Virus record (IMG/VR): IMGVR_UViG_3300020183_000304
Span: 1-31,616 of that record
Direction: 5' to 3' (one strand)
DNA: 31,616 nt
From: a virus
A program made the position numbers and the translations under genes. Below the pieces are notes generated by a model. That model had not been told where the DNA came from, made no database searches, and saw only the letters and a program-made list of their open reading frames with translations. Shown piece after piece: positions 1-23,980 of this stretch (the stretch's first letter is position 1; every line of letters starts with the position of its first letter).

Positions 1-3000
1 ATTACACCAAAAATACCCGCTGACAGATTTGGCTGGGACAGTGCTGCCGCGGATGCCACATAAATCATATCTGCAGTGGCAGACAATGGTTGTTCAAGCG
101 TGGTAGTTTCTGAACCCAATATACGATAAGTTGTTTGATATCCTCGCATGTCTTGGAATATGCGGAAAGCGATTTCTCCCGGAATCACAGAATTGGTATA
201 CAGCGTGATCGCCACTACATCGATGGCACCGATAGGAGGACCTAATATGATCACTTCGGTTCCGTCGATCACATAGTTGATGTCTTCAAAATAACGAAGT
301 CCATTGAAATAGACTTCGATTCTTTCTCCCGTGGCTCCAGAGATGTCTCGACCGGTATCAAAGCGATTGGTCTGGATCACAGTACCCGCAGATTCATCAA
401 AGGTCGATACTGCAAACGGAGCACCTTGATCGTACAGCGTGGTGTCATAGTCTACCGTGATCGCGGTACCTTTTATAGTTGGTCCGACAAATACTTCAGT
501 GACTATGTCTTGCTGATAGGTATCATTGAAACTGATGATTTGGATCACGTCTCCCAGCAACGGAATCAACGGACTAGTTGCACGCCAGATTAGGGTATTT
601 CCACTAGAGATATAGTAGTCTGCCTTGGTGCTCACGGATATCAGGATGCGTGTGCCAGCGGCCGGAAGTTGGGCCAGCGTGATAGTACGTTCAGTGGCAC
701 TGACCGCAGGATCTACCACAAAGTCCACTCCCAAGATTAGACTCTGGTCATCGATGTACACACTGACTTCATTGTCGGCCACTAGATTAAGATTGTACCC
801 GCCACGATTGGGCAGAGCATAGGTCAGACTGCTTCCGTCGGCGATGACTTGCAGACCTTCAGGCGGTCGGGCACGTATACCATTCTTGGTCACTATGAGA
901 TTGGCTTGATTGGTACCGCCCATGTAGTTGTCGAGCGTGTAGGCCAGTGTGCTTCCGTCGGCTATTTCGATCTGCTTGATCGGGGTGCTCCACGACACTG
1001 ACTGCGATTGTTCCAGCCCAAACGCTACCACAAACACATATTGAGACGCAATCAGCGGCGTTGTAAATGTCAACTTGGTACTGTATGTCGCATCGACGCT
1101 GTAAGTGTAATCGGTGGTCAGTTCACCGTTGACGAAAACCGCCATCTGATTGATGAGGCTGAACTGTACTGGTATGACCAATTGGCTTCCTATGTCGGCA
1201 CCGTTGTAACTTTCGCGGAAAATCTGATTGCCGCCGCCCAGTCCGTACACACGGATACGTAGGGCCTGGCCTGCAGAAACACCGCTGGTGATGTTCACGG
1301 TCAGATTGACCCAATCGATGGTGAACTGTTCCTCAACTGTGAGTTCTACATTGATGGTCTGATTCCACACACGAATCTGGGCAGGGAATTCCATGAGATC
1401 CGCAAAACTGTAGGTCGACTGCGTGGTTGAATATTCGTAAGACACACCTTTGATATTGAATCCGTGACCGTCGCCGATCCAATCCGCACCTGCCGTGGTG
1501 TAAACACGCAGATCCAGTGTGTCAAATATGGCACCGGGCACTAATTCTTCAGGAGCATGGCTAGAGAAAGGATCAACAAACTCGCCGCCGTCGACCACGA
1601 TGGGATTGGGCCCAGTATCGGGTGGGTTGCCGTTGTAGGCCGGAGCAGGTAGAGTTCCTAGATAAGGATCTGCGAAATCGCTTTCGTAAATGGCATCTAG
1701 GATGGCCGGATCGTAACTGGGGCGTCCTTCTGGTCCATAACTGATATTATCAAACGGATTGATGTCAAAGTTGCCCACATCAAATCCAGTGTTCTGATTG
1801 AAATCCGGAGCTGCCACTTGCACGCCCGGATACGCCACACCGGATATCAATTGTGCGAGATCTAGTCCGGGCTCATTCACTGTGGGAACATAAAGTCCCA
1901 TGGTACGATCTACACCTGTAAGTGTAGCGGCATCGACCAGAGTCCATTGATCCAGTTCAAATATTGGACTCAATACACCGGTGCTGTCGTCGCTGTTGGC
2001 CTGCCATACTCTATTATCAAATCTCACTCGGTCACCGTTGTTGTAGTTGACATTGGGTTGCCAATTCGTGATCGTGGTCTCGTATTGATATCGGTCATAT
2101 TTGATCGTGGTGTTTATATTCCGGACCAGGCTGTTGCCCATGACCGGTACTGCGATAGCACCAGATCCGTTACCACCTTCTATCGAGATCACCGGCGTGG
2201 TGAGATATCCTTGACCGGGGTCTATCACGGTGATAGCAGCGACCTGACCGGCACTGTTGATCCTGGCTACTAGTCTGGCTTCTACCTCTGCGTCTCCGGT
2301 CACTATCACTTCCGGAGCCACAGTGTATCCGGATCCGCCATCGACCACAGTCACTGACGTCAGTTGTTGCAGATAGTTCTGATACCATTGGCTGTAGGGA
2401 AAAGTTTGCCATATCGGTGCGGTACTAGGCACACTGCTGGTACTGCTCAATATGGGAGGATTGCTGTTGTCCAACACCGGGCTTACAAAGATACCTTGGG
2501 CAGGATCCCAGTAGGCCGGCAAGTCAAAATCAGTGGCCGATCCCTGATATTCATCTTGCCCCTTGTAGATCAGATTGAATTCTCGTATTTGTGTATGATA
2601 TGGCTTGACTTCTTGGATGTATTTTTCCACGAAATCTTGATTGTCTCTACGATAGATCTGAAATGGCTCCAGTTCTCGTATCACGTGATCTACGTCGATC
2701 AGAGAAGTCTTTGTGAGCCACAAAGGAGCCTGTTGCTCTTGCAGTATAAAATTGAACATCAAGACCAGGAGATTATTGCGTTCAATGGCCAGGTCGTCGA
2801 TGAAGATCTCTTCGTTAAGACTCTGTATGATCTTGCGTGTTTCTTGCACAGGTTCTTGATCAAAATACTGTGCATCAAACACTTCGATGTCAAAGCCAAA
2901 GCGTGCAGAGTTGGCTTGGTAGTTCCAGATAGATTCTTTGATCTGTATGGTACCATCTTCTACCTCTACCCTGGTCCAGGTATCCCCATTTCGTCGATAG

Positions 3001-6000
3001 ACTTCAAACTTGCCCTGGGCATTGGCAGTGACTTTGACCGAGCTACCTTCGGGCACAGAGATGGTATCCAAGGCCGACACCGTAGGAACCTCTTGGTAGA
3101 TCACTGTGAATGGATCGTATCCGGGCAGATACCAATCAATGAATTCCCAATAGAGATTGGTGTCATAGGTCTGAACCCTTGACAGGAACAGAGATTTGGC
3201 TCCTAGAGCATCTTCCTGTACTTCGTATATGGTCCAGAGACCGTTGTTGCTGGAATCGCTGACCACGAGATAGAGATAGCCGTCTGGAACTATGACTAAA
3301 TTCTGGAAACCAAGCTCTTCAAGATTGGCCACACGCTTGTTCCAGGCACCGGAACTCACTGAAGGTTCGGGTTCTTGGCTGCGTAGTAGACTAAATCTAC
3401 GGCTTTCTGCTATGGGATACTGACTCATCACAGCATTGGCTCGTACCAGATAATTCTGCAGGGCAAGGAATCTATTGACGAACATGCTCTGTCTTGGGCG
3501 GAATTCAACGCCATATTGTTCGCTGGGTTTCAGGAACGGGTCCGGCACCGGACTACCCACGGTGTCAACACCGGAGAATGAATCTTGCAATTTACGATAC
3601 AGTCCTGCTGTTAGGAATCCGTCGGCACGACCTTGAGCTATCAATTGATATTCAGTGTGTATTGTGTCATCATTGGCTTCAAGGTCGTACTCGATATGGA
3701 GCACAGTGTCCTGTACTGAAATATAAGGCAATGCGTTATAGATGGCCACTGTGCTGGCATCGAGTGGTGCCACATAAGCGATGCCACTGCTACGAGGACT
3801 CTCGATGTATCTGGCCAGAGTGTCAATGCTGAGAGTTTTCTTGGCTTTGCGATCAACGGTGCGTAAACCAGTGACCCAGAAGAAATAAGTGGCAGCGAAC
3901 AGTCCCTGTGAGGTCAGCGTGCTGATCACCGAGTAACTGTTGGGATCTCTGACCTGTCCCGATCCTTGATACTGAGATGGAGGAACATCGCTGGATATCC
4001 ATTGATAGACATCCACACTGCTTCCTGGGAACAGTTGTCCCCAGCGTCGGCTGGCGTAGACAATGTCATCTTGGTTGGGGTCGATGAATCTGGCTTCGGT
4101 AGTATCCCACCAGATCTGCCCCACACGCTCGAATCCCCATTTCTGTCCGTAATTGTTGATGTCACCGGCGTTGTAGGCTGCAGGATCTATGGCACCGATA
4201 TAGTCAAGATTCTGTCTCACTGCGCCCAACAGACGGCCTTGCAACGGATTGAAGAAATCAAAGTACTGTTTGACATTGCCAGCCACACGATCGTACATGA
4301 AAACAGTGTTCAGTAATTCGTAGTTGACCACTGGTTGCTGTCTGCGTATTTCTCTCCAGGCTGGCTGGCGGCCGATGTTACGAAATTCAGCGAATCTACC
4401 ATAGTTGGCTCCGCTGTCGCCACTGTCTTCTCCTGGACTACCTACCAACAATACTCCCGTGGTGTAGTCTACAGCAGTTCCGAACTGATCTAATGTTGAA
4501 ATCTCAGAATCATAAAGTTGCTGTCCAAACACGAACTTGCCAGAGTTGGCTATGCTAGATGACGCCGCTGGCAACAGATCGTAGGTGTATACTGCTCCGG
4601 ATTGCGGCACGATGTCTGCGAATCCGGTGCTACGAGAATCAAAGTAAGTGGTTCCTGCATCAAATGTAGTGATGCCGATGGCCGAAGCATCCGGTGCACC
4701 CACGATCAAGTTCACAGTACTATCGCTGATGAACAACGACTTTCCAAAATGTGCATAAGATTGTGGCACAGGACTGCGTAGGGTCTGCACATAGACGTAG
4801 ATGTCCAGACCGAGATCGTCGAACAGAGTGCCAGATCCAGGCAATACTGTGAGTCTAGCTAGAGGTACAGTGGCATCAAGATTCTTGACTGTGATTGTGA
4901 TGCGACCACTGATCATCTTGATCACGCTCTCAGTCAATGGTGCTGTGACAAAATCCACGGTCTGATCTGTGGCATCGTAAGTGTAATCGACATTCAGTGT
5001 CTGTGCCACATCGTCTACTAGGACTCTTGGTGTGTATGAACTAGCCTGAGACCATAGATCTCCCACGGCGAATGATTTCGTGATCCCGTCGGCCACGTAC
5101 TCAATGTCCGGTGTTGATGCAGCCCGTATGTTGGGCAAGGCTGCTGCGTTGATGTCGTCCACGAGATCAGCGATGATGGTGCCAGTAGACTCTACCCAAT
5201 AGTTGTTGATGCGGATATACTCGCCCGACGATGAAATACTGGGATTGGCCACGGTCGACGTGATGGTACCATAGAATCTGGTCTGATTCAGCACGAAATC
5301 CACGCTGCCTTCTTGGCTCTGGGAGATAGAAGCAAAAGGCTGGCTGGCAAACAGGCTACAGTTATTCACGCACTGATCCACAGTGAATCCAAATTGATGC
5401 TCGCGTCCCGGTGTGGCCGCGACCACGGTCTGTGTCAATTGGAAGTAGTTGGTCTCTACTTCGATAGTGTCACCAATTTGCAAATCGACATCCAGAGTCA
5501 CTGTGGTCGGAAGAGATATCGTGTATTGGCCACCTATGTTATTTTCGGTAGATAGCAATCTCTGTCCATTGAGCATGACTGTTATAGGACCGTTGGTCAG
5601 ATTTTGTTCTGTTGAGTAACTGGTCACAGATGTGTCGGTGACTTGGAAACGCTGTGCTGAACGTGAATAGTAGTAAACTCGTCCTTCTTCGATGCCGGTC
5701 GGTCCGCTCACACCGGGTGCTCCGATCAACACTCCGGTACCATCGGTGGTGGTACTCACACTGTGTCCAAATTCTACCGCACCTGCTTCGGGCGAGTCGA
5801 TCTCGGCTACTTTTTTCCAGTGGGTAGTTGCACGGATCTGAACCGACACATCCGCCGGAGGAACAGTGGTGAATGTAAGGATGTCACCGACGAAAGTGTA
5901 ATCATAGAACGGTCTTGAAAGTTTTTCATCAACATATACACTAAAACTGTAGATGTCATCTACGGTATGTAGAGATCCCAAATCATACTTGATTTGGATT

Positions 6001-9000
6001 ATATCTATGTCATCACCGGCAGATGGCGTGGAAACAAATGTCACTGTGGCTACATTATCTGTTCTTGTCACAGTATAATCGGTGGTGATCGTTTGCAAGA
6101 TGCCGTTGACCTTGACCTGTATCTGATCGTTGGCCGTGATGTCTATCGAGCTGGTAAACACGTAGGCATCTTCTATGCCGTCGGCCACATAAGAAACACC
6201 GGCCACCTGATTGATCACCTGTTTTCTCAGGATGTTAACCGGTAATCCTTCGGCCGGTGCTGTAGCAAATGTGACTGCACCCAAGGCCACGATATAGTCT
6301 GTGCCTAAAATCTGCACTACTCCGTCTACTAATACTTGTAATTGATCTGACGATGCTATAGAAATATAGTTGTCGTAGTTAAAGGTCGTGATATTGGCAT
6401 CACCTACATATCGCACGATCTGATCTTGTACATCAACGCGGCCAAAACAGTACACTTTGTTGGCACCGGGTGCACCAATATACAGCCATCTCTCACCTCG
6501 ACTCATGGTCACCGAATAACCAAATCGATCAGCGGCCGTGACCAGGTCCCCGGGTGCCACACATAGCAGTTGCGTTTTCAGGAAACTGTTGCTGGACACC
6601 GGATTAAAAATAGTAACAGCGTATCCTTGGTCGCTGAGGCTGCGTACAGCCCCCACGATGGCCCATGTCTGGTCTCCCAGGTCTATAGAGTTACCAAAAC
6701 CGTCAGCACCGGTGGTACCTACTAGATCAAGCGTGATATTTTGACTGTAAGCGTCACTGGAATCTTTTACATAGGTATAGACTAGGCCGGTACTGCCGCC
6801 CTGTGGAGCACCAATCATGGCAGCAAGATTTTCAAATCCCTGCGAGATAGCTGTTCCGAATCCGCTGTTTTCTATAGGTTCTATGGGTTCGCGATCGTAG
6901 GCTACAGAAAACGGTTGTGTTTTTTCTAACACAGCCCAATGTCCTGTGCCATCATTGTCTACCCACACACGACTGCCGGCTGTGAGAAGATCTGCATAGG
7001 GCAAGGCATTCACATCGCTGGGTTGTGCTATCCTAGCAGATTCTAGCGTGTAAGCCACTCCTCGGCCCACTGCCTCTGTTTGCGTTCCACCAAATCGGAA
7101 TCCGATCAACACAGTGTATATCGACGGGATAGAGATTATTTCATAGGTACCGTTGATAGCTGGACCAAAATAGCGTATGATCAGTTTATCGCCAGCAGTC
7201 AACCCGTGTTGGGCATCAAATGTGACCAAACTCCTGCCATCGAGATTGTCGCTGACAGAGATTACCTGTGCCGGGACTTCTTGCACACGGTACACATTCC
7301 AATCGTAAGCGTTGCTCTTGGCTACCCAGATAGTGCTACCAATACCAAGGGTGTCGAGATCAACGTTCTCTAACGGAGTGCCCAGTCGTGAGAGATCAAA
7401 CACAGTGAAATCTACATCATCTAGGCTGACATAGCCCGCGGTAGGGTACGTCACTGATTCAAAACTATCTACCGTGGTCGGTAATATGTTGGGGCTGGTA
7501 GGAGGAATGCTAACTTTCCATACATTCTGTACCAGCACTGTTTGGTCAGCGTCGCTGACTTCTTGGCTGTTGATCACTTGTATGATACTGGGATCAGATA
7601 GTAATTTGCTCTGATCTAACAGCAATTCAAAGTAGTTACGATTGGCCGTGGCACCATAATTGGCACGTTGCATGGCCCAGTATTCATAAACATCGTATTG
7701 TGCGACTTCCTTACGCAGATCAGCGAACTGGAATATCTCCAGGGCTCCGATGGTACCTTTGCTGCCCAGGAACTGCTGGTAGAGATTGACCTGGCTGATA
7801 TCGTCCAGATTGAGATCTCGCATGTACTGTCGCGGACGGAAGCCAATCAGACCAAACGAGAAAAGATCCACGTCGGTCTGCAACGAAGCATCGTATACAG
7901 AATAGGCCTGGGCCAACTGATCCGAAGCGTTTGACGAGTTAGGCAACAGTCCTTTCTGTACCTGATTGTAGTCGCTGCGGATCCAGAGATTGTAGTTGAA
8001 TGCAGTACTGGGCTGGATGATGGTGCTAGACACCCAGTACTCGTTCTTGAACAGCACGATTTCGCCCTTGGTATAACATTGATTCGGTTTCCATTCTAGG
8101 ATATTGTCTTCGTTGATGACAAATCCAGGTGCGTTGATGGTGCCGTTCCAGTCGCCGGATATGGCACCACTGACCAGCACACGACTCTGTCGTGATCCTG
8201 TCACGGGTTCATAGATCAGATCCGCAAACACACTGAGATTGTCCAAGACCACGATATTTTCGTAGGCCGTAAAGGACAGGTTCAAGAAATTGATAGTATC
8301 ACTGGTAAGGCTGGTGGCACGGAATGTGTTATCCAATCTTTCGATGACCAAATTGCCGTCTTTGATAGGCTGGCGATTCTGATTGATTATGAGATTCTCA
8401 GGGGTAGGATCTGCTAGACTTTCTACCACAGCACCAGGGCGTGTCACACTGATAGATATCGCGGCTGGATTGAGGTTTATGATAGCACCAGCGGACCAGC
8501 CTTGGCCACTCCAGTAGAGGAACTCTTCGGCCATCTGTTTCCAGTTAATGATATAACCATTTTCCTGTGTTTCAAACACAAAGCCCTGGCGGTCCAGCAA
8601 CTGTCCATAACTGTACAAGAAATCGCAGACCGCATTTACATTGCTGAATGTGTAACCATAGGGGATCTGTACCACGGTATCGCTGTGATCCAGCGGGATC
8701 CGGGCCGTGGTGCCATTGGCCGTGAGCGTGAATAGGTTACCGTTGGGTATGCTGGCCAAGATGTTGAAATAAGGACGGGCCACATTGTATCCAAAAACTT
8801 GCCAACCGGTATCGGTGCTCTGGATGATCACTGAACTGTAAGTGATCTGCTCGAAGGGCTGATTCTTGTACAGCAGGATCTGATAACTCTCTTCTGGCAG
8901 CAACAAACTGGTATTGAGGCTGTTCGGGGTGCTACGGTCTGTGAAGATCTTGAGATAGCGTTTGTCAGTGAACGCACCCACCCTCCAGCACAGACGGACA

Positions 9001-12000
9001 CCGGTATTTTGTAGGGCATTTTCGAGATCCAGGGTGCTGGCACGGCCCAGCTGTCGATTGTAATCGATCAACCAGTTGATGTAGCTGGCTTTGGATACTC
9101 CGTCACCGTACAAGGGATTGATCTGCTTGGCATCGAGACGATATCTACTATCCCATAAGAACTGCCCCACTCCGTCATCGTACACATAGCGATCTCTGTC
9201 AGCGAACAGGCCAAAGAACTTGGCCGGCTTGGTCAGCACCAACAGTCTCATCACGGCAAAAGGCCAGGACGACGAAGTCCTCCAGGTGTTTTCTACCGGT
9301 CCATCGTCGCCCACTGCCCAGCTCCGTCGGAAACTGGTACTGTCAAAATTGCCAACCACGGATTCGAGTGGTGACAACAGCTGACCTTCTGAATCCGAAG
9401 GTATCACGGCTGTGAGATCCGGTCTGCGATAGCGAGGTATCACATATTCGCCTGCTGGATCTCTGACCAGGCCGTTGGCTAGATCATCCCAGAGCACCAA
9501 GTTACCAGAGGTATAAGGTGCAGGACCATAATAATCGCTCCACCAGGTGGGTTCTTGGCTGAATCCCAGCATCTCCCAAGGACGTGTGTTGGGTGCGGTG
9601 GTATCATAGAAATATTCATAGATACCTCGCCAGGCTCCCAGCAATGGCTGTCTGTTTAATTTGTTTTCACTCTGGCTGTAGTTGTAGGTAAACTGGTTGT
9701 TGGCCAGGTAGGTCTGTGCCGCATAGTCTAACTTGTTCCAGCCCACCCAGCTCAAGAAATCGGTGGACATCATGGTATTGATTTCTTGTAAAGTGTAATC
9801 GGTGGTGCGGAACTGACCAGGTATGACTTCATTTTCGGTCAGAGGAATTGGAGACACTATCTTGAGATTGTTGAAGATGCGAGTCTCGAATTCTAACAGT
9901 ACTTCATCTCGATAGTCTTCAAAGGCCACGGTAATGGATCCGTCGTGTCCTCGGATGACCAAGGTAGGATTTATGTAAGTGGTATCGAGATACATCTCCG
10001 GTTTGAAGGCTGGATACAAACCCATCTTGGTAGGAGTATTAGGGACATAGCTGCCATAGGTGGCGTTATATTCTCTTATCGCGACGCGATCGCCCACAGA
10101 CAACGGAACCGTGATAGTCAGCGTGGGTGCGTCATCGGACACAGTGTATTCATAACCACGCAACAGTATCCGGTCGTTGACATATACTGCAAGACCATGG
10201 AAGTTACTGCGAGTGAAATCATACACTCTCAACAGATCAAACGTGGGTGTGCTGATCGCCGAATACACATAGTTGTTTTCGGTGTAGTTCTGCTTGCTAG
10301 GCAGCATGTCACTCCAGTAGAATGGACTGGATTCGATGCGTCCGAGACAGATTTCCGTGATCACGGAATCGAGTATCTGTGTAGGAGTGTTGTTGACATA
10401 GTTGCCTTTGGCAGCCAGGTCTAACAATAGGGCTTTGTACTTTTCATATTCTCGACTGTTGAATTGTATGGACGAAATAATCTCAAACTGTTTCTGTCTC
10501 AGGAACATGCCGGTCAAGGCCAATGGACTGCTGTGCTGTACGATGTTGTCACCGTAGCGTAAGATGTTGCCGAGGTCGCGGGTGTTGTTGGCACCGTCGA
10601 TAGGACCTTGTATGTTTCTTAAATTCTGTCCTATGCTCTGGTAATGGGTACGGATAGTGCCCAAGGTAAACGCATTGGAGTTTTCGTTGAGTGCATTGTT
10701 TTCAAGGTTGAGAGGAACTTGATAATAGGCCACTTCACTGTCTGTGTTAGATATGGCTTGCACTTCAATCACTGTTCCTATCTCTGGAGGATTGGTCAGC
10801 GTGATCACAGTGTCGTTTCTAGAAACAGTGTAAGTATATCTGGTAGGATCGATGAATATCGATCCATCAAAAATCTGCAATGGAGCAAAGACCGATGTGA
10901 CATCGATGGGCACGTCAAGGATCAATGGTTCGCCGGCATAGGTGAATCTAAAAACCTGGCGACTACGATTTTCTTGAGCCGCGGTCTGCCATCCCAATAG
11001 TGAAGAAAAACTCACCCGGTCGATGTACTGACGCACGAACCCTTGACTGATAGACTCTTCTTGGCTCACACTGTCTCGCACATAGATGAAGGTGTCGGTG
11101 AACAGGTGATTTTCAAACAGGATATCGCCGATGTTGGTGATATTGAGATAACGGAGGCTGAATCCCAGCACTGGATCAGCGATGGCTGTGCCACCTTCGG
11201 CGTAGGCAAACAGTTTGGTACCAGTAAAAGTGGAACTGGGATACACTGATCTATCAGCGAGACTACGTCCATTTACATCAAATATATCAAACAAGATAGG
11301 TTGGTTGACACTGGTCTTTTGCTGTGCCAGGATCCAGCCACTGCCATCAAACCAGTAAGTCTTGCCCTGCTGTGTGTTGCCACTCAGGCAGACCACGGTG
11401 GTATCTATCTCTGTGTCTCGATCATAGACCGGTGTAAGATTGATGATCTTGGGGCTGCCTGGTACACCATCAGGATCGATAAACTCTACCTGATATACTC
11501 TGTTACGCACATCAGGATCTCGGTCGGCCGCAAAAATAATGCGGCTGCCGTCCTGCAGGATGTAACCATCTACACTGTAACCCAGGCTACCGTTGATGTC
11601 ACTGAAGGCATCGGTTTCAAAAAAGTCGATGATGTTAACCGGATCGATGGCCGATGTTCCATTGTTGAACAAATGGAGGTCGGCACGGAATTCGATGATG
11701 GGACGCTTTCCTCTACGGTCATTGTCCAAGACCGCGACCTGATTGTTGCGTTCGGCTGTGTAGTTTATAACGTCGATGTGAAACCACCGGTTGGATCTGG
11801 ACCAAGCGTTACGATCTCGGCTGGAACGATTCTGGGTGATATAGTCGACCACGGTGGGTGCGTTTAGATTGGCATCAAAATTGCCGTCATCATAGGCAGT
11901 ACTGTCGTAGGGCAGAGTTTCACTGCGAGTGTAAGTCTCTGGTGTTATCAGTTCAGACGTCGGAATCAATTTGATTCCGTTGCCTATGAGATATTCATCC

Positions 12001-13757
12001 ACGGGCTGTGTAGGCAGTGGTGCTCCTTCAGGACCACCTGTGCCACGATTGATGATGCTTTCGTAGACATCATCATAGATGAACTGATGGAACACATCTG
12101 GTGTATGGACAGCACCGGTCATTTTCTGATGGTGGTGCGTATGGAACGGTCCAAAATAGGCCTCGCCGTCCACGAACCCCACACGGGCATCGATGCCAGG
12201 ACCGGTACCCACCCCTTCCACATAGAATTCTTGGTTCTGATACTGCTCGGGCAGTATCACTCCTCGCAGTTGTACCTTTAGACCGTTGGTGAATACCACG
12301 CCATTGGGGCTGATGTAATTTTTAGCACCAATGATTTCATTCACGTCCAATGGTTGGATGCTGATCGGATCTATCAGTTTCAATCGACCGAACAGTTCAG
12401 GATTTTCACTGTCTTGATACCAGAGATCGTCCAGTACCGCGGTCAACAACGGTATCTGTTGGAAAAACCCCGAAGCATTTTTATACCATTGGGTGCTGGC
12501 ATACTGTGTTCCAAAGATGATACGGAATTTGCTGAGAACCGGTACTGCGGCGACCGATGTCAGTTTCATCTGTATCCGGCCTCCGATATTCACATATCTG
12601 ATCCGCCAGACTGTGTATCTACTGTCTGGCGGGATATCAACTGTAAGATCGTAAGGAAGGCTGTCATAACTGCCAGGCTGGCCGTCAAGGTTGTCGGGCG
12701 TGCCGCTGACCACCACATCTGTGATCGTGTTGTAAGGTAGGTCATCATAGGGCTGGCCAGTCACATCGTAACTCCAAGATTGTCCAACTTGGTTGGGTGC
12801 TGTACGGACCAGAGGATCAAATTCGCTCGTGATCTGCCAACCTCCATCTTGTGGATCTTGTTGTGTTTCTGTGAAAACTATGGTCCGACCATCGAAATCT
12901 CGGATGCCATCGATCCCATTGGGATTGGCTGCCAAAAACTGGTCGAGATAGATATTGTTGACTTGATTGAATTTCAGTGTCCGTGTCAGCAGATCTACGG
13001 TACCAATGTCGTTGAGGGTAAAAAAGAAATCTTGGGCATCTTTTAGCGGTACATTGAACGTAATGATTCCTTGGTCTTCGCCGTTGTTGATCACACCCAA
13101 TACATCGCGACTGCTGATGTTAGGAGTTCCAGGCATGGTTCCTGTGATGCCTGGAGCAGCCTGTATCCAGAATCTGGATCCTGGTTGATTGACCTGCCAA
13201 GTGTAGGTGCCGCCACGTACCAGAGTCAAGGTGGGATTATCGCCAGCAGTCTCAGAAAACTGGTAACCATCTGGAGTCCGGGTGACATCCCAGTCGTCTG
13301 TGAGTGGAACTTCGGTGATGCCAATGTCGACTGAGTCCGGACCTTGTGGCAACCAATAGTACTGACTGTAGTTTATAAACTTGTCAAGATCGCAGAAAGA
13401 ATCCCAGGTGTAATACTGACTCTGGAACAAGCGATCTTGTCGTCGTATGTTGGCACCTTGCAGAGACAAGGCATCGATCATGCCTGGATAAGTTATCGTA
13501 TCTCTGACGTCAGTGGTTTCTGGACGGAAAAATACCACACCGGGTTCCAACTGATAATCGGTTCGTGCAGGTGTGCTTTCAACCACATAGTTATCAGCAG
13601 GATTCACTCCGGGTCCGACCCGGCGACCAACGTAACCTTGTGTTTTGATGATCGATGGTTCTTGTGTGAGTTGATCCAGCGTGGCTGCCAGGAACTGTTT
13701 GTTGGTTCCGGTCTGGAATATTTCCGGCAGTAGATCTACTGTGCGACGACTGGCCAT
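1..13757 (-). CDS. Giant virion structural protein in the gp7 position (C-terminus beyond the left edge)
   Basis: Reading from the ATG at 13757, the frame stays open to base 3: 4585 codons with no stop, so the true protein is longer. It starts with MASRRTVDLLPEIF, a start I associate with large structural proteins of uncultured marine T4-like phages. Approximate regions: conserved N-terminus 1-150; His cluster 534-552 (GPFHTHHHQKMTGAVHT); tail-fibre-type beta repeats (pattern VxVDGxxQ...DYTV...TFxxxPxxG) near 936-1000, 1163-1225, 2440-2640, 2697-2773, 2883-2953 and 4176-4520; about seven FG-GAP-like motifs (FG...IGAPG) between 2299 and 3110; conserved KYIQEVKPYHT near 3710; GSGY/GQGY repeats 3806-3866; a WQPNVNYNNGDRV segment near 3899. 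A strong GGAGGT lies 5 bases before the ATG, inside the end of gp6. The ATG shares one base with the gp6 TGA. In T4, gene 7 (1032 aa) follows gene 6, so this is a positional gp7 counterpart. Homology to gp7 is not shown. A role in baseplate or host contact is inference. Confidence 0.8.
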   Translation of the reverse strand, partial: MASRRTVDLLPEIFQTGTNKQFLAATLDQLTQEPSIIKTQGYVGRRVGPGVNPADNYVVESTPARTDYQLEPGVVFFRPETTDVRDTITYPGMIDALSLQGANIRRQDRLFQSQYYTWDSFCDLDKFINYSQYYWLPQGPDSVDIGITEVPLTDDWDVTRTPDGYQFSETAGDNPTLTLVRGGTYTWQVNQPGSRFWIQAAPGITGTMPGTPNISSRDVLGVINNGEDQGIITFNVPLKDAQDFFFTLNDIGTVDLLTRTLKFNQVNNIYLDQFLAANPNGIDGIRDFDGRTIVFTETQQDPQDGGWQITSEFDPLVRTAPNQVGQSWSYDVTGQPYDDLPYNTITDVVVSGTPDNLDGQPGSYDSLPYDLTVDIPPDSRYTVWRIRYVNIGGRIQMKLTSVAAVPVLSKFRIIFGTQYASTQWYKNASGFFQQIPLLTAVLDDLWYQDSENPELFGRLKLIDPISIQPLDVNEIIGAKNYISPNGVVFTNGLKVQLRGVILPEQYQNQEFYVEGVGTGPGIDARVGFVDGEAYFGPFHTHHHQKMTGAVHTPDVFHQFIYDDVYESIINRGTGGPEGAPLPTQPVDEYLIGNGIKLIPTSELITPETYTRSETLPYDSTAYDDGNFDANLNAPTVVDYITQNRSSRDRNAWSRSNRWFHIDVINYTAERNNQVAVLDNDRRGKRPIIEFRADLHLFNNGTSAIDPVNIIDFFETDAFSDINGSLGYSVDGYILQDGSRIIFAADRDPDVRNRVYQVEFIDPDGVPGSPKIINLTPVYDRDTEIDTTVVCLSGNTQQGKTYWFDGSGWILAQQKTSVNQPILFDIFDVNGRSLADRSVYPSSTFTGTKLFAYAEGGTAIADPVLGFSLRYLNITNIGDILFENHLFTDTFIYVRDSVSQEESISQGFVRQYIDRVSFSSLLGWQTAAQENRSRQVFRFTYAGEPLILDVPIDVTSVFAPLQIFDGSIFIDPTRYTYTVSRNDTVITLTNPPEIGTVIEVQAISNTDSEVAYYQVPLNLENNALNENSNAFTLGTIRTHYQSIGQNLRNIQGPIDGANNTRDLGNILRYGDNIVQHSSPLALTGMFLRQKQFEIISSIQFNSREYEKYKALLLDLAAKGNYVNNTPTQILDSVITEICLGRIESSPFYWSDMLPSKQNYTENNYVYSAISTPTFDLLRVYDFTRSNFHGLAVYVNDRILLRGYEYTVSDDAPTLTITVPLSVGDRVAIREYNATYGSYVPNTPTKMGLYPAFKPEMYLDTTYINPTLVIRGHDGSITVAFEDYRDEVLLEFETRIFNNLKIVSPIPLTENEVIPGQFRTTDYTLQEINTMMSTDFLSWVGWNKLDYAAQTYLANNQFTYNYSQSENKLNRQPLLGAWRGIYEYFYDTTAPNTRPWEMLGFSQEPTWWSDYYGPAPYTSGNLVLWDDLANGLVRDPAGEYVIPRYRRPDLTAVIPSDSEGQLLSPLESVVGNFDSTSFRRSWAVGDDGPVENTWRTSSSWPFAVMRLLVLTKPAKFFGLFADRDRYVYDDGVGQFLWDSRYRLDAKQINPLYGDGVSKASYINWLIDYNRQLGRASTLDLENALQNTGVRLCWRVGAFTDKRYLKIFTDRSTPNSLNTSLLLPEESYQILLYKNQPFEQITYSSVIIQSTDTGWQVFGYNVARPYFNILASIPNGNLFTLTANGTTARIPLDHSDTVVQIPYGYTFSNVNAVCDFLYSYGQLLDRQGFVFETQENGYIINWKQMAEEFLYWSGQGWSAGAIINLNPAAISISVTRPGAVVESLADPTPENLIINQNRQPIKDGNLVIERLDNTFRATSLTSDTINFLNLSFTAYENIVVLDNLSVFADLIYEPVTGSRQSRVLVSGAISGDWNGTINAPGFVINEDNILEWKPNQCYTKGEIVLFKNEYWVSSTIIQPSTAFNYNLWIRSDYNQVQKGLLPNSSNASDQLAQAYSVYDASLQTDVDLFSFGLIGFRPRQYMRDLNLDDISQVNLYQQFLGSKGTIGALEIFQFADLRKEVAQYDVYEYWAMQRANYGATANRNYFELLLDQSKLLSDPSIIQVINSQEVSDADQTVLVQNVWKVSIPPTSPNILPTTVDSFESVTYPTAGYVSLDDVDFTVFDLSRLGTPLENVDLDTLGIGSTIWVAKSNAYDWNVYRVQEVPAQVISVSDNLDGRSLVTFDAQHGLTAGDKLIIRYFGPAINGTYEIISIPSIYTVLIGFRFGGTQTEAVGRGVAYTLESARIAQPSDVNALPYADLLTAGSRVWVDNDGTGHWAVLEKTQPFSVAYDREPIEPIENSGFGTAISQGFENLAAMIGAPQGGSTGLVYTYVKDSSDAYSQNITLDLVGTTGADGFGNSIDLGDQTWAIVGAVRSLSDQGYAVTIFNPVSSNSFLKTQLLCVAPGDLVTAADRFGYSVTMSRGERWLYIGAPGANKVYCFGRVDVQDQIVRYVGDANITTFNYDNYISIASSDQLQVLVDGVVQILGTDYIVALGAVTFATAPAEGLPVNILRKQVINQVAGVSYVADGIEDAYVFTSSIDITANDQIQVKVNGILQTITTDYTVTRTDNVATVTFVSTPSAGDDIDIIQIKYDLGSLHTVDDIYSFSVYVDEKLSRPFYDYTFVGDILTFTTVPPADVSVQIRATTHWKKVAEIDSPEAGAVEFGHSVSTTTDGTGVLIGAPGVSGPTGIEEGRVYYYSRSAQRFQVTDTSVTSYSTEQNLTNGPITVMLNGQRLLSTENNIGGQYTISLPTTVTLDVDLQIGDTIEVETNYFQLTQTVVAATPGREHQFGFTVDQCVNNCSLFASQPFASISQSQEGSVDFVLNQTRFYGTITSTVANPSISSSGEYIRINNYWVESTGTIIADLVDDINAAALPNIRAASTPDIEYVADGITKSFAVGDLWSQASSYTPRVLVDDVAQTLNVDYTYDATDQTVDFVTAPLTESVIKMISGRITITVKNLDATVPLARLTVLPGSGTLFDDLGLDIYVYVQTLRSPVPQSYAHFGKSLFISDSTVNLIVGAPDASAIGITTFDAGTTYFDSRSTGFADIVPQSGAVYTYDLLPAASSSIANSGKFVFGQQLYDSEISTLDQFGTAVDYTTGVLLVGSPGEDSGDSGANYGRFAEFRNIGRQPAWREIRRQQPVVNYELLNTVFMYDRVAGNVKQYFDFFNPLQGRLLGAVRQNLDYIGAIDPAAYNAGDINNYGQKWGFERVGQIWWDTTEARFIDPNQDDIVYASRRWGQLFPGSSVDVYQWISSDVPPSQYQGSGQVRDPNSYSVISTLTSQGLFAATYFFWVTGLRTVDRKAKKTLSIDTLARYIESPRSSGIAYVAPLDASTVAIYNALPYISVQDTVLHIEYDLEANDDTIHTEYQLIAQGRADGFLTAGLYRKLQDSFSGVDTVGSPVPDPFLKPSEQYGVEFRPRQSMFVNRFLALQNYLVRANAVMSQYPIAESRRFSLLRSQEPEPSVSSGAWNKRVANLEELGFQNLVIVPDGYLYLVVSDSSNNGLWTIYEVQEDALGAKSLFLSRVQTYDTNLYWEFIDWYLPGYDPFTVIYQEVPTVSALDTISVPEGSSVKVTANAQGKFEVYRRNGDTWTRVEVEDGTIQIKESIWNYQANSARFGFDIEVFDAQYFDQEPVQETRKIIQSLNEEIFIDDLAIERNNLLVLMFNFILQEQQAPLWLTKTSLIDVDHVIRELEPFQIYRRDNQDFVEKYIQEVKPYHTQIREFNLIYKGQDEYQGSATDFDLPAYWDPAQGIFVSPVLDNSNPPILSSTSSVPSTAPIWQTFPYSQWYQNYLQQLTSVTVVDGGSGYTVAPEVIVTGDAEVEARLVARINSAGQVAAITVIDPGQGYLTTPVISIEGGNGSGAIAVPVMGNSLVRNINTTIKYDRYQYETTITNWQPNVNYNNGDRVRFDNRVWQANSDDSTGVLSPIFELDQWTLVDAATLTGVDRTMGLYVPTVNEPGLDLAQLISGVAYPGVQVAAPDFNQNTGFDVGNFDINPFDNISYGPEGRPSYDPAILDAIYESDFADPYLGTLPAPAYNGNPPDTGPNPIVVDGGEFVDPFSSHAPEELVPGAIFDTLDLRVYTTAGADWIGDGHGFNIKGVSYEYSTTQSTYSFADLMEFPAQIRVWNQTINVELTVEEQFTIDWVNLTVNITSGVSAGQALRIRVYGLGGGNQIFRESYNGADIGSQLVIPVQFSLINQMAVFVNGELTTDYTYSVDATYSTKLTFTTPLIASQYVFVVAFGLEQSQSVSWSTPIKQIEIADGSTLAYTLDNYMGGTNQANLIVTKNGIRARPPEGLQVIADGSSLTYALPNRGGYNLNLVADNEVSVYIDDQSLILGVDFVVDPAVSATERTITLAQLPAAGTRILISVSTKADYYISSGNTLIWRATSPLIPLLGDVIQIISFNDTYQQDIVTEVFVGPTIKGTAITVDYDTTLYDQGAPFAVSTFDESAGTVIQTNRFDTGRDISGATGERIEVYFNGLRYFEDINYVIDGTEVIILGPPIGAIDVVAITLYTNSVIPGEIAFRIFQDMRGYQTTYRILGSETTTLEQPLSATADMIYVASAAALSQPNLSAGIFGV

Positions 13758-16700
13758 CAGTAACCTCCGCCGCCACCACCACCACCGCCACCACCACCAC
13801 CGCCACCACCACCACCGCCACCACCGCCACCACCACCGCCGATACTGCCACCGCCGATACTGCCACCGCCGATACTGCTGCTGCCTCCACTATATTCACC
13901 TGTCTGGCTTACAAGACTGCTCACACCACCATTGGCCGAAACCCCTGCCGGGTACAGACCCGATACAGTGGTCTGTGTTCTCAGATTGCTTTGTGTTAGT
14001 GCATCAATGACTTCTACGTCTGTGACCGTGGCAGCATTGACAAATATCTCGTTGGGTGCCGATCTGATTTCGTAGAGATCACCAAAGGTCTTGAGCGGAT
14101 TCAATGGCACCAAGACCACAGAAGAAATGATGGATCCCATCTGCTCGTGTAGATATGCTGCCAGTTCTGAGAAGAAGAAACTGTCACCAAAATCCCATTT
14201 GTCGATGCTGAAATAGTTGTTGAGATTGGCCACTACTTGGCTCTTGATCTCCGATACCGATGCGGTGGTCTTGGGTGCCCGCACCACTTTGATGATACCA
14301 CGCAGTTCGGGTGCGGCCTTGGCACCAAATAGGGGTTTGAACAGCACCGAGTTAAAAACCACGTTGTCAGAGATCATCTTGTAGTCATTGAGATTGCTGT
14401 AGGCTATGCTGAGTTCGTTTATGGTCGGAATCGCGGGCTCTAGCACAGAATCCGTGGTATCTTTGATGTAGTTCTGATACTGTGTGTAGTATTCTTGGGT
14501 GACCAAATAAAGATCGATGATGTTTGTGGCACCCGGATCGATCACGTTGGTCAACGGTGAATTATGACGATACTGGAAGTACAGGCCTTGTCGGCCTGTG
14601 CGAGATATGAAATCGTTGCGTTGTAAGAGAGTACGCTGGATGGTACCATTTACTATGGTGATGACCAATTCGTAGAACTCCAGGGCCTGGGTGGCATAAA
14701 AAATCTGTCCATTGGTGTATTCGGCCTTGACCAGTTCAATGGCATCTTTGGTAGTGTACAAAGTGTTGACCACACCAGCGGCCACGGGCAGATATCTTTC
14801 AAGATTATCAAAGTCCGTGGTCAGTTGTAAAAAAACCAGTTTGTTAGTGGGCGACACATTGGGGGCTACTATGGTTTCAAAAAAGTCAGGATCGTCAGCC
14901 ACGCCGTCAGCATCAGAGTCAGTGTAACTGACCACGACCTGATAGTCGTTGACATATCCATCGCTTTCCACCGGCTGTGCAGTGATATTCATGGTTATGT
15001 CCGAAGGCAAAGGTTCGTTGCTGTCTGGACGACTGTTGGTCTTGAGTACCCGGACGAAGTCATCGATGACCAGGCCAGTCTTACTGTCATAGACTTCTTC
15101 GTTTCCGTCAAAGAAGAATCTGGTCTGTATCACAGATGCGAATAGATATGCCAGTCCTCGATAGGTCACGGTATAACTGGCACCGTCGGTGATAAACTGT
15201 ATCAACCACGATGCATCCAACTGCAGACCATTTGTGTTCTGTGCGTTAGCCAGACTGAATGACGAATCCAGTGCGAGATTGGTGCTGGTAATCACATACC
15301 ATTCTCCGGCAAGATTGTTATAGCCAAGACCAAAATCGCGGAACAGTTCGATCTGCTGTATCATGGCCTGTTCGATGCTCAATGGCAGATCGGTCACGAA
15401 CTTGGGTACTACCAAAGCCGGAACCGCACCAGTGGGAACAAAATTATTCAAGACCACCGGCCCTTCCCCGTTGCTGAGGTTGCCCAGACCGCTGTTGGTT
15501 CCATCTAATATGACTTCTTGTGCCGTGGCCCAGATTACCAATTTCTCATCAGCACGCACAGGGACACCCGCGACCAGACGATTCTGTGCATCAAAGAAAA
15601 ATCCTGCGGGCGGCACAAATTTGATCAAAGAACCCTGGGTAACATACTTCATGTTGTTAGTGGTATAGATACCAATGGGTTGAGGTGCACGCAGAGCACC
15701 GCCATAGAAATAACCTGTGGTTTCATTGAGCAATCGTGTGCTCTGTTGCCAACCATAGTTCAATATAGCCAGATTAGGTCTGGGGAAGTTCTGATAGTAA
15801 AACTGTGTGAGTGCCCGGGTGACCAACAACGGTTCGATGTCGTTGTTGAGCACATCCACGATCTCGTTGCGATCGATCCAGTCAAAGTCAAAGGTGGGCA
15901 ACACGTTTTCGCGATAGAGCACACCGTCACTGGAGAAAATGTTGGTAGAAGAATACTTGGCCGTGACGTCGGTGAGATCAAGATATCTGCTGGTACCTAT
16001 AGACGATCTGGCCACGGCCTTGGATTTGATGATAGAATTGAATTTGGTGAACGGAAAAAGATTGTAGTCTTCGCCGTTGACCATCCTGTTCTGGGTATAA
16101 TAGCGTGCCGGGGCCCGCTGTTTGATCTCTTCTATGGTTTCGCGGGCTTGGGCGTTGCTCACCGGCTCCGTGATACCACAGGTAAACGATGCTGTCTCCA
16201 CACGACCGTAACGACTGATATAACTGATATCGAGCACTATGCTCTGCATCTCTTCAGGGTTAATGATGTACTGTAATCCATTGGAGGCACGCACATAGGT
16301 GCGGAAGAAACCCACAGGTATCTCAGCAAACACCCCGTCACCAAAGGTCAGGGTGATCTCGTCGTTGGCACGACTGGTGATGGAATAGATCTGACGTTGA
16401 TCCGGGGCCAATTGTTCTACTGCACCGGCATAGATAGATTCTGCGTATTCCCATTCGCCTGCGATAGATCCCACATCGTCTAGCTTGTACAACCAATGGT
16501 CTTCCTGGTTACAGCCTTCGATGTTGATGTTTACTGTGCGGTTGGGCAGGGCCTCGGCCAGATTGAAGTCTTGGTTCTGGAGCACACCTTGTTTGAACAG
16601 GAAAAAATAGCCGGTATTATCGCTACCGAACCCCAACTGATCGTTGCGGTACAGCACATTAAATACGCCCGAGGGACGTGGTGCGGGTTCGTACACATAG

Positions 16701-17368
16701 TCTCGGCCTTCGCTGGTAGAACTGACCGCTTCAAACGGCATGTTTACTCCATCTACCGTGGCCGCATAAGGTATCACGGGCAAGAATCCCGGAATCAAGT
16801 TTATGGCATATTCAGAGGTTTTCACACCCAATATGGTCTGTTCGTTGCCTGGTCGTCCAAATTTCTGACTGTCTACCAAGGCAGCATTGATGATCTGCGT
16901 GAACTGTTCTAACCAGTTGGGATTGGTAGGATCATTCCAGTCGATTGTGACATTGCTGAGATTGATGCCGTTGTAATCCGTGATATTTTCCGTGGTGCTT
17001 ATGGAAAACACTTTGAGATAACCCTGGGAGGCTTGGTTACGCTTGGGCGTATAGGAAACCAGATTAGCCAGACGCACCACGCTGTCGCGTCGTTCAGCGG
17101 TGTCCAAGAAGTTTTCACGTGCGTTTAAATCATTACGGAAGGCCAGACTCTGGCCCATGAACGCCATGACATCAAGCAAGGCGATAAATTCCGACGATTC
17201 GATGTAGTCATTGAAGGTCTCCGGATAGTACAGTCGGAGATAGTCCACGAAACTCTTGCGGAGAGTTTCAAAATCATAGGATTGGAAGTCGGCTTCTCGG
17301 AAGGTCTGATACAGTCTCTTCCAATCTTCTACACCAAATATCGCGGTCTGTCTTGCAGTCTTGGCCAT
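13757..17368 (-). CDS. 6: Baseplate wedge protein gp6 (baseplate J-like), enlarged, with poly-Gly C-terminus
   Basis: Homologue of T4 gp6, which forms the ring of the baseplate wedge and clamps neighbouring wedges together. Residues 1-115 (VEDWKRLYQTFREADFQSY, then DYLRLYYPETFNDYIESSE and LLDVMAFMGQSLAFRNDLN) are the typical gp6 start. Residues about 1027-1130 (KWDFGDSFFFSELAAYLHEQ, SSVVLVPLNP, APNEIFVNAATV) are the typical gp6 end. At about 1203 aa it is nearly twice the 660-aa T4 protein; the extra sequence is in the middle and at the C-terminus. The tail is Ser/Gly-rich, with SIGGG repeats, 26 consecutive glycines and a final Tyr. I prefer the ATG at 17368 (MAKTARQ); a GTG two codons upstream (17374) is in frame and could also start. 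A late-promoter-like CATAAATA lies about 20 bases upstream. The stop overlaps the start of the giant gene, so the two are probably translationally coupled. Confidence 0.93.
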   Translation of the reverse strand: MAKTARQTAIFGVEDWKRLYQTFREADFQSYDFETLRKSFVDYLRLYYPETFNDYIESSEFIALLDVMAFMGQSLAFRNDLNARENFLDTAERRDSVVRLANLVSYTPKRNQASQGYLKVFSISTTENITDYNGINLSNVTIDWNDPTNPNWLEQFTQIINAALVDSQKFGRPGNEQTILGVKTSEYAINLIPGFLPVIPYAATVDGVNMPFEAVSSTSEGRDYVYEPAPRPSGVFNVLYRNDQLGFGSDNTGYFFLFKQGVLQNQDFNLAEALPNRTVNINIEGCNQEDHWLYKLDDVGSIAGEWEYAESIYAGAVEQLAPDQRQIYSITSRANDEITLTFGDGVFAEIPVGFFRTYVRASNGLQYIINPEEMQSIVLDISYISRYGRVETASFTCGITEPVSNAQARETIEEIKQRAPARYYTQNRMVNGEDYNLFPFTKFNSIIKSKAVARSSIGTSRYLDLTDVTAKYSSTNIFSSDGVLYRENVLPTFDFDWIDRNEIVDVLNNDIEPLLVTRALTQFYYQNFPRPNLAILNYGWQQSTRLLNETTGYFYGGALRAPQPIGIYTTNNMKYVTQGSLIKFVPPAGFFFDAQNRLVAGVPVRADEKLVIWATAQEVILDGTNSGLGNLSNGEGPVVLNNFVPTGAVPALVVPKFVTDLPLSIEQAMIQQIELFRDFGLGYNNLAGEWYVITSTNLALDSSFSLANAQNTNGLQLDASWLIQFITDGASYTVTYRGLAYLFASVIQTRFFFDGNEEVYDSKTGLVIDDFVRVLKTNSRPDSNEPLPSDITMNITAQPVESDGYVNDYQVVVSYTDSDADGVADDPDFFETIVAPNVSPTNKLVFLQLTTDFDNLERYLPVAAGVVNTLYTTKDAIELVKAEYTNGQIFYATQALEFYELVITIVNGTIQRTLLQRNDFISRTGRQGLYFQYRHNSPLTNVIDPGATNIIDLYLVTQEYYTQYQNYIKDTTDSVLEPAIPTINELSIAYSNLNDYKMISDNVVFNSVLFKPLFGAKAAPELRGIIKVVRAPKTTASVSEIKSQVVANLNNYFSIDKWDFGDSFFFSELAAYLHEQMGSIISSVVLVPLNPLKTFGDLYEIRSAPNEIFVNAATVTDVEVIDALTQSNLRTQTTVSGLYPAGVSANGGVSSLVSQTGEYSGGSSSIGGGSIGGGSIGGGGGGGGGGGGGGGGGGGGGGGGGGY
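13763..13768 (-). promoter_or_regulatory. Shine-Dalgarno site of the giant gene inside the gp6 poly-Gly codons
   Basis: The last two glycine codons of gp6 (GGA GGT) form a GGAGGT ribosome binding site 5 bases before the ATG at 13757. The same bases therefore encode the gp6 tail and load ribosomes on the giant gene. Confidence 0.75.
13763..13840 (-). repeat. 26-codon glycine run (GGT/GGC triplet repeat) at the end of gp6
   Basis: Twenty-six consecutive glycine codons, mostly GGT with scattered GGC and one GGA, followed by Tyr and stop. Three SIGGG units precede the run. Triplet tracts like this are prone to length change by slippage; a change of whole triplets would leave the frame intact. 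The opposite strand reads as an artefactual poly-His frame. Confidence 0.95.
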
Positions 17369-17388
17369 GGTCACTCACTAATATCCAG

Positions 17389-17417: not shown

Positions 17418-17792
17418 TTAGATGAAACTGGCCCGGCGAGATTCTTGATCAAAAAATATAGAGAGACGCTCGGCAGTTTCGCTGGGGACCACTTGGATCT
17501 GCAGTTCTATCAGCATTCCGTTGTCCTGTGGATAGATATCTATGTCGCTGAGATACACACGGGGATCGCCTCCGGCCACTCGTTGCAGTTCTTGCATGAT
17601 GGCTGCTTCTACCTCTGGAGTCTGATTCTCAAAGATGTAACTCCAGATCGTGGTTCCGTACCCAGGTCGGCCGGGCAGTTCTCCTTGCTGGATGTTGAAA
17701 GCATTGGAAAGATCACGCTTGATCAGTTCAAAATCCGTGAGCGTGAACTTGAAAAATTGATCCTGTGTGTTGAAACCAATGAATGTGGGCAT
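17418..17792 (-). CDS. 25: Baseplate wedge protein gp25 (GpW/gp25 family)
   Basis: A 124-aa protein, close to the 132 aa of T4 gp25, the small wedge component at the gp6-gp7-gp53 core that contacts the sheath and is conserved across contractile systems. The central part (GRPGYGTTIWSYIFENQTPE, then EVEAAIMQELQRV, DPRVYLSDIDI and LIELQIQVVP) carries the family pattern of a Gly-rich turn, an aromatic FE segment, a helix, and two strands for the beta hairpin. The start MPTFIGFNTQDQ matches what I recall of marine T4-like gp25 proteins, supporting the ATG at 17792. No clear Shine-Dalgarno sequence precedes it; instead TAAATAC ends only a few bases before the ATG. The gene lies 12 bases after gp5 and 49 bases before gp6. 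The order 5-25-6 keeps central baseplate genes together. The family is sometimes called lysozyme-like, but enzymatic activity is not expected. Confidence 0.93.
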   Translation of the reverse strand: MPTFIGFNTQDQFFKFTLTDFELIKRDLSNAFNIQQGELPGRPGYGTTIWSYIFENQTPEVEAAIMQELQRVAGGDPRVYLSDIDIYPQDNGMLIELQIQVVPSETAERLSIFFDQESRRASFI

Positions 17793-23680: not shown

Positions 23681-23980
23681 TTAAAAGCCTAACACTGCTC
23701 GCAGTGTGGTAATCTTGGGCAGATATATGGTCTCGCCTGCGACAAAATCCCAGGGTGGAGCGGTCAAGGTATTGGGATTGCGGCTGTAGAACACCCACCA
23801 CAGTCCAGGATCGTCATAGAGGTCAAAGGCCAGCATGTCCGGACGATATTGATAGGTCTGATTGATCTTTAACAGCTGGTCGTCGGCTTCTTTGGGTATG
23901 GGTCTGTCCACCATGACGCCCAAGTAAAACTGCTGATACTGGGTGTCAAAATATGGACTGGTAGAATTGTAGTTGGCCAT
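23681..23980 (-). CDS. Small LysM-like / gp53-like baseplate protein
   Basis: A 99-aa protein. Its second half (YQYRPDMLAFDLYDDPGLWW, then VFYSRNPNTL, PPWDFVAGETIYLP) follows the pattern of LysM-like phage tail proteins such as the C-terminal domain of T4 gp53 and P2 gpX: a helix with a DLYxDPxLWW motif, then NPN, then a W-D-hydrophobic-Gly-hydrophobic-Y-hydrophobic-P segment. In T4, gp53 joins wedges at the outer rim of the central baseplate. At 99 aa the protein is shorter than T4 gp53 (196 aa) and resembles a stand-alone LysM-type adaptor. Its start has the strongest ribosome binding site in the operon (AAAGGAGG at 23990-23997, 9 bases before the ATG), and its ATG shares a base with the upstream TAA, so it should be made in high amounts. 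Family is fairly sure; gp53 identity is tentative. Confidence 0.8.
   Translation of the reverse strand: MANYNSTSPYFDTQYQQFYLGVMVDRPIPKEADDQLLKINQTYQYRPDMLAFDLYDDPGLWWVFYSRNPNTLTAPPWDFVAGETIYLPKITTLRAVLGF

Follow-up and report, generated by a model that had tools for sequence, protein, structure and literature searches.

T4 gp7 (phrog_964) is the initiator of the baseplate wedge. Core bundles formed by gp6 and gp7 hold each wedge together and relay the signal from the fibres to the sheath, as is generally known and has been described (PMC8894135). In the contractile injection system of Algoriphagus the protein Alg11 takes part in this conserved core bundle, its inserts include carbohydrate-binding modules, and the gp7-like part has been described as an evolutionary hotspot (PMC8894135). 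Very large proteins are also encoded next to the wedge genes of jumbo phages, where they have been labelled 'structural' or 'hypothetical' in database records and papers. CBB_236 was detected with 21 peptides in the virion beside the wedge protein CBB_237 (PMC5259590), and gp245 of phAPEC6, a protein of 381.88 kDa listed after the 'baseplate wedge' gp244, was detected with 17 virion peptides (PMC7247149). Here a linear IMG/VR record of 31,616 bases (IMGVR_UViG_3300020183_000304), which is probably a fragment and is called the window in the following, was analysed. It contains a giant reading frame of the same family, whose product is probably the giant wedge protein in the baseplate of a jumbo myophage of the RaK2/PA5oct type and most likely does the job of gp7.

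The Giant Reading Frame

On the minus strand a frame starting with ATG extends from position 13757 to position 3, with 4585 open codons and without a stop at the left edge of the window, just as the uninterrupted frame of 13.75 kb had been described in the first-pass annotation. As the remaining five frames here contain one stop per about 21 codons, the chance of such an open run is about 1e-96. The base composition by codon position is uniform along the frame and no tandem-repeat array was found within it. Relatives with 50–65% identity could be aligned across 4,200–4,500 residues of the giant, each of them in one unbroken frame, which makes the frameshift or assembly join named at the outset as a possible refutation very unlikely. 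That the frame is an artefact, be it by a join, a frameshift or a chance opening, might be argued from the contig being a fragment with the stop of the giant out of view. This reading deserves practically no weight: it is refuted already by the relatives, since whole-length uninterrupted homologues occur on many independent contigs, and by the minute chance given above. The frame is a genuine gene. In four close relatives (L016, L017, L023, and L027) the protein extends 163–165 residues beyond the last residue seen here, so that the natural stop should lie just past the edge and a total of about 4,750 amino acids is to be expected. An overlapping contig at the left end was not found by an exact 30-base pattern, and a nucleotide search with 25 kb of the window against phage records yielded zero matches.

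The encoded protein matched the model phrog_10938 ('virion structural protein', 3,324 positions) in four stretches with an E value of 2.4e-295. A profile scan of IMG/VR confirmed at least 595 relatives, and the homologues found there span the whole length of the giant. Complete genes among the loci analysed (n = 112) encode 2,944–6,510 amino acids, and the named homologues which were aligned range from 3,323 to 4,555. A size of more than four times that of T4 gp7, as had been pointed out initially, is therefore correct and normal for this family. The further statement that it is among the largest tail genes has to be tempered, as the family itself reaches 6,510 amino acids and huge-phage proteins as long as 7,694 amino acids are on record (PMC7162821). 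The first-pass annotation had also taken the protein for a phage structural protein and had suggested looking for it by virion mass spectrometry. This is borne out by its homologues: in addition to CBB_236, gp355 of PA5oct is a virion protein by ESI-MS/MS according to its record note, and gp245 of phAPEC6 is presumably the orthologue judging from its position and mass. The giant is thus real and ordinary for its phage group, a member of an already known family, for which the new part is the likely assignment as gp7. Such giants are common in metagenomes and represent the longest baseplate-region gene in most of the phages examined.

Gene Neighbourhood

Read leftwards on the minus strand, the genes for the phrog_12050 virion protein, gp53, a protein of 1127 amino acids, a gp5-like hub, gp25, and gp6 precede the giant (Table 1), and the stop of gp6 overlaps the start of the giant (TGATG). 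The plus strand carries genes for a gp55-like sigma factor, SbcD, a DUF6071 protein, and SbcC. The giant hence comes straight after gp6 in an operon of the order gp53-gp5-gp25-gp6, which is divergent from the sigma factor and SbcCD genes.

Table 1: Features of the window with their positions; residue numbers are those of the giant protein.
Feature	Position	Strand	Evidence or remark
Giant virion protein, phrog_10938 family, gp7 position	1..13757	-	4585 residues present; ~164 C-terminal residues and stop beyond window
Constant N-terminal block, residues 1-150	13308..13757	-	Length mean 153, SD 9 (113 sequences)
Beta-sandwich module, residues ~870-1010 (mapped from RaK2 461-606)	10728..11150	-	Weakly TSP4/T4 gp10-like
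Gp7-like core signature part 1 (putative), residues ~1700-1760, 'FL-YG-YLE' helix	8478..8660	-	Blocks 1601-1770 to signature positions 30-83
Gp7-like core signature part 2 (putative), near-invariant KG(T), residues ~1935-2060	7578..7955	-	Alignment and profile scan
FG-GAP beta-propeller (probable, seven-blade), residues ~2300-3110	4428..6860	-	PF14312 E 3e-10
Constant C-terminal helical block, EVKPYHTKIR motif, residues 3613-3729	2571..2921	-	Alignment
G-GY-xAPxV beta repeats, residues ~3797-3880	2118..2369	-	
CBM_5_12-like carbohydrate-binding motif (predicted), residues 3898-3920	1998..2066	-	23 bits, just under Pfam cut-off 26.2
Gp6 baseplate wedge homologue, poly-glycine tail	13757..17374	-	phrog_10646 E 2.5e-278; phrog_219 E 2e-26
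Gp25 baseplate wedge homologue	17418..17792	-	PF04965, phrog_43; hhalign to T4 gp25 87%
Gp5-like baseplate hub protein	17805..20294	-	phrog_13211, PF04717
Conserved virion protein between gp5 and gp53, 1127 aa	20294..23677	-	phrog_11190
Gp53 baseplate wedge homologue	23681..23980	-	phrog_7145; hhalign to T4 gp53 88%
Virion structural protein, 1223 aa	23980..27651	-	phrog_12050

This arrangement is not restricted to the window. Among the metagenomic giants with enough upstream DNA a gp6 homologue was found directly upstream in all 181 loci, its best segment ending 39 bases (median) ahead of the giant; gp25 was present in 177 of the 181. In 64 loci the family of the 1127-amino acid protein was also encountered upstream. 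PA5oct, 121Q, GAP32, Hallingskeid, and Vibrio 2.275.O likewise show the order gp53-(structural)-gp5-gp25-gp6-giant, with the sigma factor and SbcCD genes diverging from it. PHA46 has the same operon with an unannotated gap at the expected place of the divergent genes, and Phosso and Atu_ph07 keep the order gp25-gp6-giant. The gp7 position proposed for the giant from the window alone is thus supported by its neighbour in every locus checked, as well as by the sensitive profile test described below.

Some further observations were made on the neighbouring genes. Gp6 of the window ends with a run of 26 glycines (13757-13880) before the tyrosine preceding the stop, the longest run in its relatives being 6 (177 sequences), and this run supplies a GGAGG just ahead of the overlapping TGATG start of the giant; the repeat may have expanded locally, or the run may stem from the assembly. 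The DUF6071 protein (29685-30434; Pfam E 1.5e-9, no PHROG match) is encoded between SbcD and SbcC, whose genes directly adjoin each other in PA5oct, 121Q, and GAP32. In the gp5-like hub an OB domain but no Pfam lysozyme domain was recognised; the record of its GAP32 counterpart cites Phage_lysozyme. For the 1127-amino acid protein no T4 counterpart was recognised. In Salicola phage SCTP-2 gp141 (L004:10633-19923), with 3,096 amino acids and located in the gp6 position directly upstream of the giant, is a second giant wedge-region protein.

A Putative Gp7-Like Core

The first-pass annotation had proposed a direct profile search against T4 gp7. A comparison by hhalign with the giant in 12 blocks, and likewise in narrower blocks, yielded nothing. 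The Pfam gp7 domains Gp7_helical, Gp7_5th, and Gp7_6th are present in T4 gp7 and absent from the giant; they are also absent from the proteins in the gp7 position of Rhizobium phage LG08 and of Menderavirus Yut3. A deep signature of T4 gp7, DFYSTKG(I/T)-x2-S-x3-LF, is common to the gp7-position proteins of Yut3 and LG08 (weakly), and is also borne by a protein of 6,273 amino acids which directly follows gp6 in the cyanophage S-CAM22. T4-type gp7 profiles matched the S-CAM22 and Yut3 proteins with no intermediates at 87–92%. Among the PHROG models T4 gp7 is linked to phrog_26741, phrog_2885, and phrog_17744, and those in turn to phrog_701.

The profile of this core signature was widened with metagenomic relatives, and the giant family was scanned with it as 112 overlapping blocks. 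For the main scan the T4-type rows were left out, and gp7-like core sequences from cyanophage-type phages were used. The six best of the 112 blocks were all located at residues 1601–2090. Blocks around 1700–1760 aligned to signature positions 30–83 and those at 1935–2020 to positions 54–128, in a collinear manner. The observed score of 29.2 was not attained in any of 200 column shuffles (maximum 20.4), and seven further families from this region, used as controls, scored at most 17.7. With the T4-type rows included the ranking of the blocks was similar, and the register of the signature was the same across the giant sub-families. The HH probability of the match was 20–50%; with the sub-family of the window alone it was only about 2%, the register being unchanged. 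The signature profile matched the T4 gp7 profile at 99.9%, a value obtained with the T4-type rows included in the former. A gp7-only profile of Straboviridae did not reproduce the core match, and when residues 1695–1765 and 1935–2060 were joined in one profile, the alignment still failed to reach the first part. A helix with the motif 'LPEIFQT' near the N-terminus had been considered as the first gp7 helix; this idea was abandoned, as residues around 1700–1760 come out higher in the sliding scan. As the HH probability is 20–50% and the Straboviridae profile is blind to the giant, the link to gp7 is a transitive one. That the giant holds a gp7-like core at residues of about 1700–2060 is therefore supported but not proven by the profiles, and the giant is most likely gp7 of the baseplate wedge in an enlarged form.

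The missing direct match to T4 gp7 and an HH probability of at most 50% would also suit a different protein in the gp7 slot, located at the baseplate periphery and anchoring fibres, for which the many beta-rich stretches of the giant with modules of the adhesion type might speak. Gp6 would then be partnered by the product of another gene, for example the 1127-amino acid protein, and the KG(T) likeness would be due to chance or convergence. This has to be considered rather improbable, since among the proteins of the operon the signature scan picks only the giant, and in it a single region, the 1127-amino acid family scores like background, and the adjacency to gp6 is universal among the loci checked.

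Modules and Structure Models

Across 113 sequences, residues 1–150, 1001–2080, and 3151–3720 of the window protein are of nearly constant length, and most of the differences in total length stem from the elastic regions 151–640, 2081–3150, and 3721 to the end. The region 2081–3150 comprises 199–1427 residues across the family. The size variation arises through beta-rich inserts, including the probable FG-GAP propeller, which is largely missing in RaK2-like members. Five of its blades were found by pattern, at residues 2300, 2412, 2663, 3004, and 3092, and two extra ones by eye near 2368 and 2766, which adds up to a probable seven-blade propeller. T7-fibre-like beta modules are inserted between the blades.

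Prediction of the fold had been suggested as a check from the beginning. Models of the RaK2 homologue could indeed be calculated with AF2, but a significant fold match in the PDB was not obtained. The model of residues 1–1200 is confident (pLDDT 87, pTM 0.83) and depicts the N-terminal block as helices followed by beta structure; a second one, of residues 1245–2444, is moderate (pTM 0.46). Foldseek of both models against the PDB gave no match at E <= 0.001, which is not proof of new folds, and against predicted viral proteins the top matches were mainly of the same family. When the whole protein or either of two core alignments was used as the query, sequence searches of the PDB gave chance-level matches only. 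By VIA-align the beta sandwich weakly resembled CBA120 TSP4 (Z 6.8) and T4 gp10 (5iv5, Z 4.8), in matches of 62–72 residues which are below the level excluding a common arrangement. In the weak structural matches of the moderate second model the KG(T) block and the block 3613–3729 pack together, resembling proteins from the baseplates of contractile injection systems (7aeb_G, Z 4.6; 7b5h_AH, Z 3.9). The length of 7aeb_G suggests that it is Alg11, which is gp6-like, and not a counterpart of gp7.

From its size the giant had been thought to replace gp8, gp10, and others in addition to gp7. Such a fusion of wedge proteins would account for the great length, for the lack of recognised gp8, gp9, and gp11 homologues in or beside the window, and for the weak likeness of a beta domain to T4 gp10. 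It is nevertheless very unlikely and remained unsupported: PA5oct, a sister phage which has the giant, carries a separate gp10-like wedge protein three genes downstream (phrog_958, E 1e-15), and the smallest family members, with 2,944 amino acids, do without most of the extra modules. Moreover, hhalign of T4 gp5, 6, 8, 9, 10, 11, 12, and 53 against the 12 blocks of the giant found nothing, which for gp8 to gp12 is a weak test as each query was a single sequence. Downstream of the giant, close relatives have a conserved protein of 201 amino acids (phrog_11259) and fibre-like proteins. In view of the weak resemblance to the docking fold of TSP4 and T4 gp10, the giant may still have some gp10-like docking role.

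A Proposed Model of the Wedge

With the giant regarded as the gp7 of its phage, its location, copy number, fibre docking, and signalling may be pictured as follows. In each of six wedges the gp7-like core would enter the core bundle alongside gp6, with gp25 and gp53 as neighbours, and the helical block 3613–3729 would probably be packed beside this core. From this constant core the beta-rich modules, that is the gp10/TSP-like sandwich, the FG-GAP propeller, the T7-fibre-like and CBM5/12-like modules, and the C-terminal beta structure, would reach outward and carry or contact the tail fibres. The signal of attachment would pass from these modules to the core bundle, whereupon contraction of the sheath would be released. 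The giant is informative mainly because it suggests that a family of giants with no assigned role is gp7. The assignment would offer a testable wedge model for jumbo-phage baseplates, in which the variable modules would be candidate sites of fibre or host contact.

Comparison with Known Systems

With T4 gp7 the giant has in common that its gene directly follows gp6 and, probably, the KG(T/I) core signature, the latter via intermediates only. It differs in being more than four times longer, in lacking the gp7 Pfam domains, and in the absence of a direct sequence match.

The giants of T4-like cyanophages (phrog_701, a model of 6,136 positions with the 6,273-amino acid S-CAM22 protein, and phrog_2885, a model of 4,179 positions) resemble it in that the S-CAM22 protein lies immediately after gp6 and carries the gp7 core signature. 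However, family scans gave no direct match between them and the window protein, and their signature is located at residue ~690 and not at ~2000. In the S-CAM22 genome (KU686209) the 6,273-amino acid protein (L212:3069-21890) is annotated only as 'baseplate wedge protein', and another gene (1,375 amino acids, phrog_708), the product of which has no match to T4 gp7, is annotated as gp7. As the signature is found in the former, the label has probably been put on the wrong gene. The chances are about even that gp7 serves T4-related phages in general as a hotspot of insertion, with gp7s of 3,000–6,500 residues in cyanophages and RaK2/PA5oct-type jumbo phages consisting of a small core-bundle domain embedded in exchangeable beta modules that amount to thousands of residues. 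If so, each baseplate wedge would possibly bear a large protein arm, and the annotated gp7 of S-CAM22 would be a different protein.

Alg11 and Alg12 of the Algoriphagus contractile injection system are likewise wedge proteins with large inserted domains; they are not of phage origin, and the structural similarity to the giant is only weak (Z 4.6).

Closest are the named members of phrog_10938, i.e., the RaK2 protein, 121Q gp582, GAP32 gp230, CBB_236, PA5oct gp355, Atu_ph07 gp180, Phosso gp294, and SCTP-2 gp140. The window protein has 22–27% identity to those which were aligned, and shares with them the family, the constant core, and the gene order after gp6. It differs from the RaK2-like members by its FG-GAP region.
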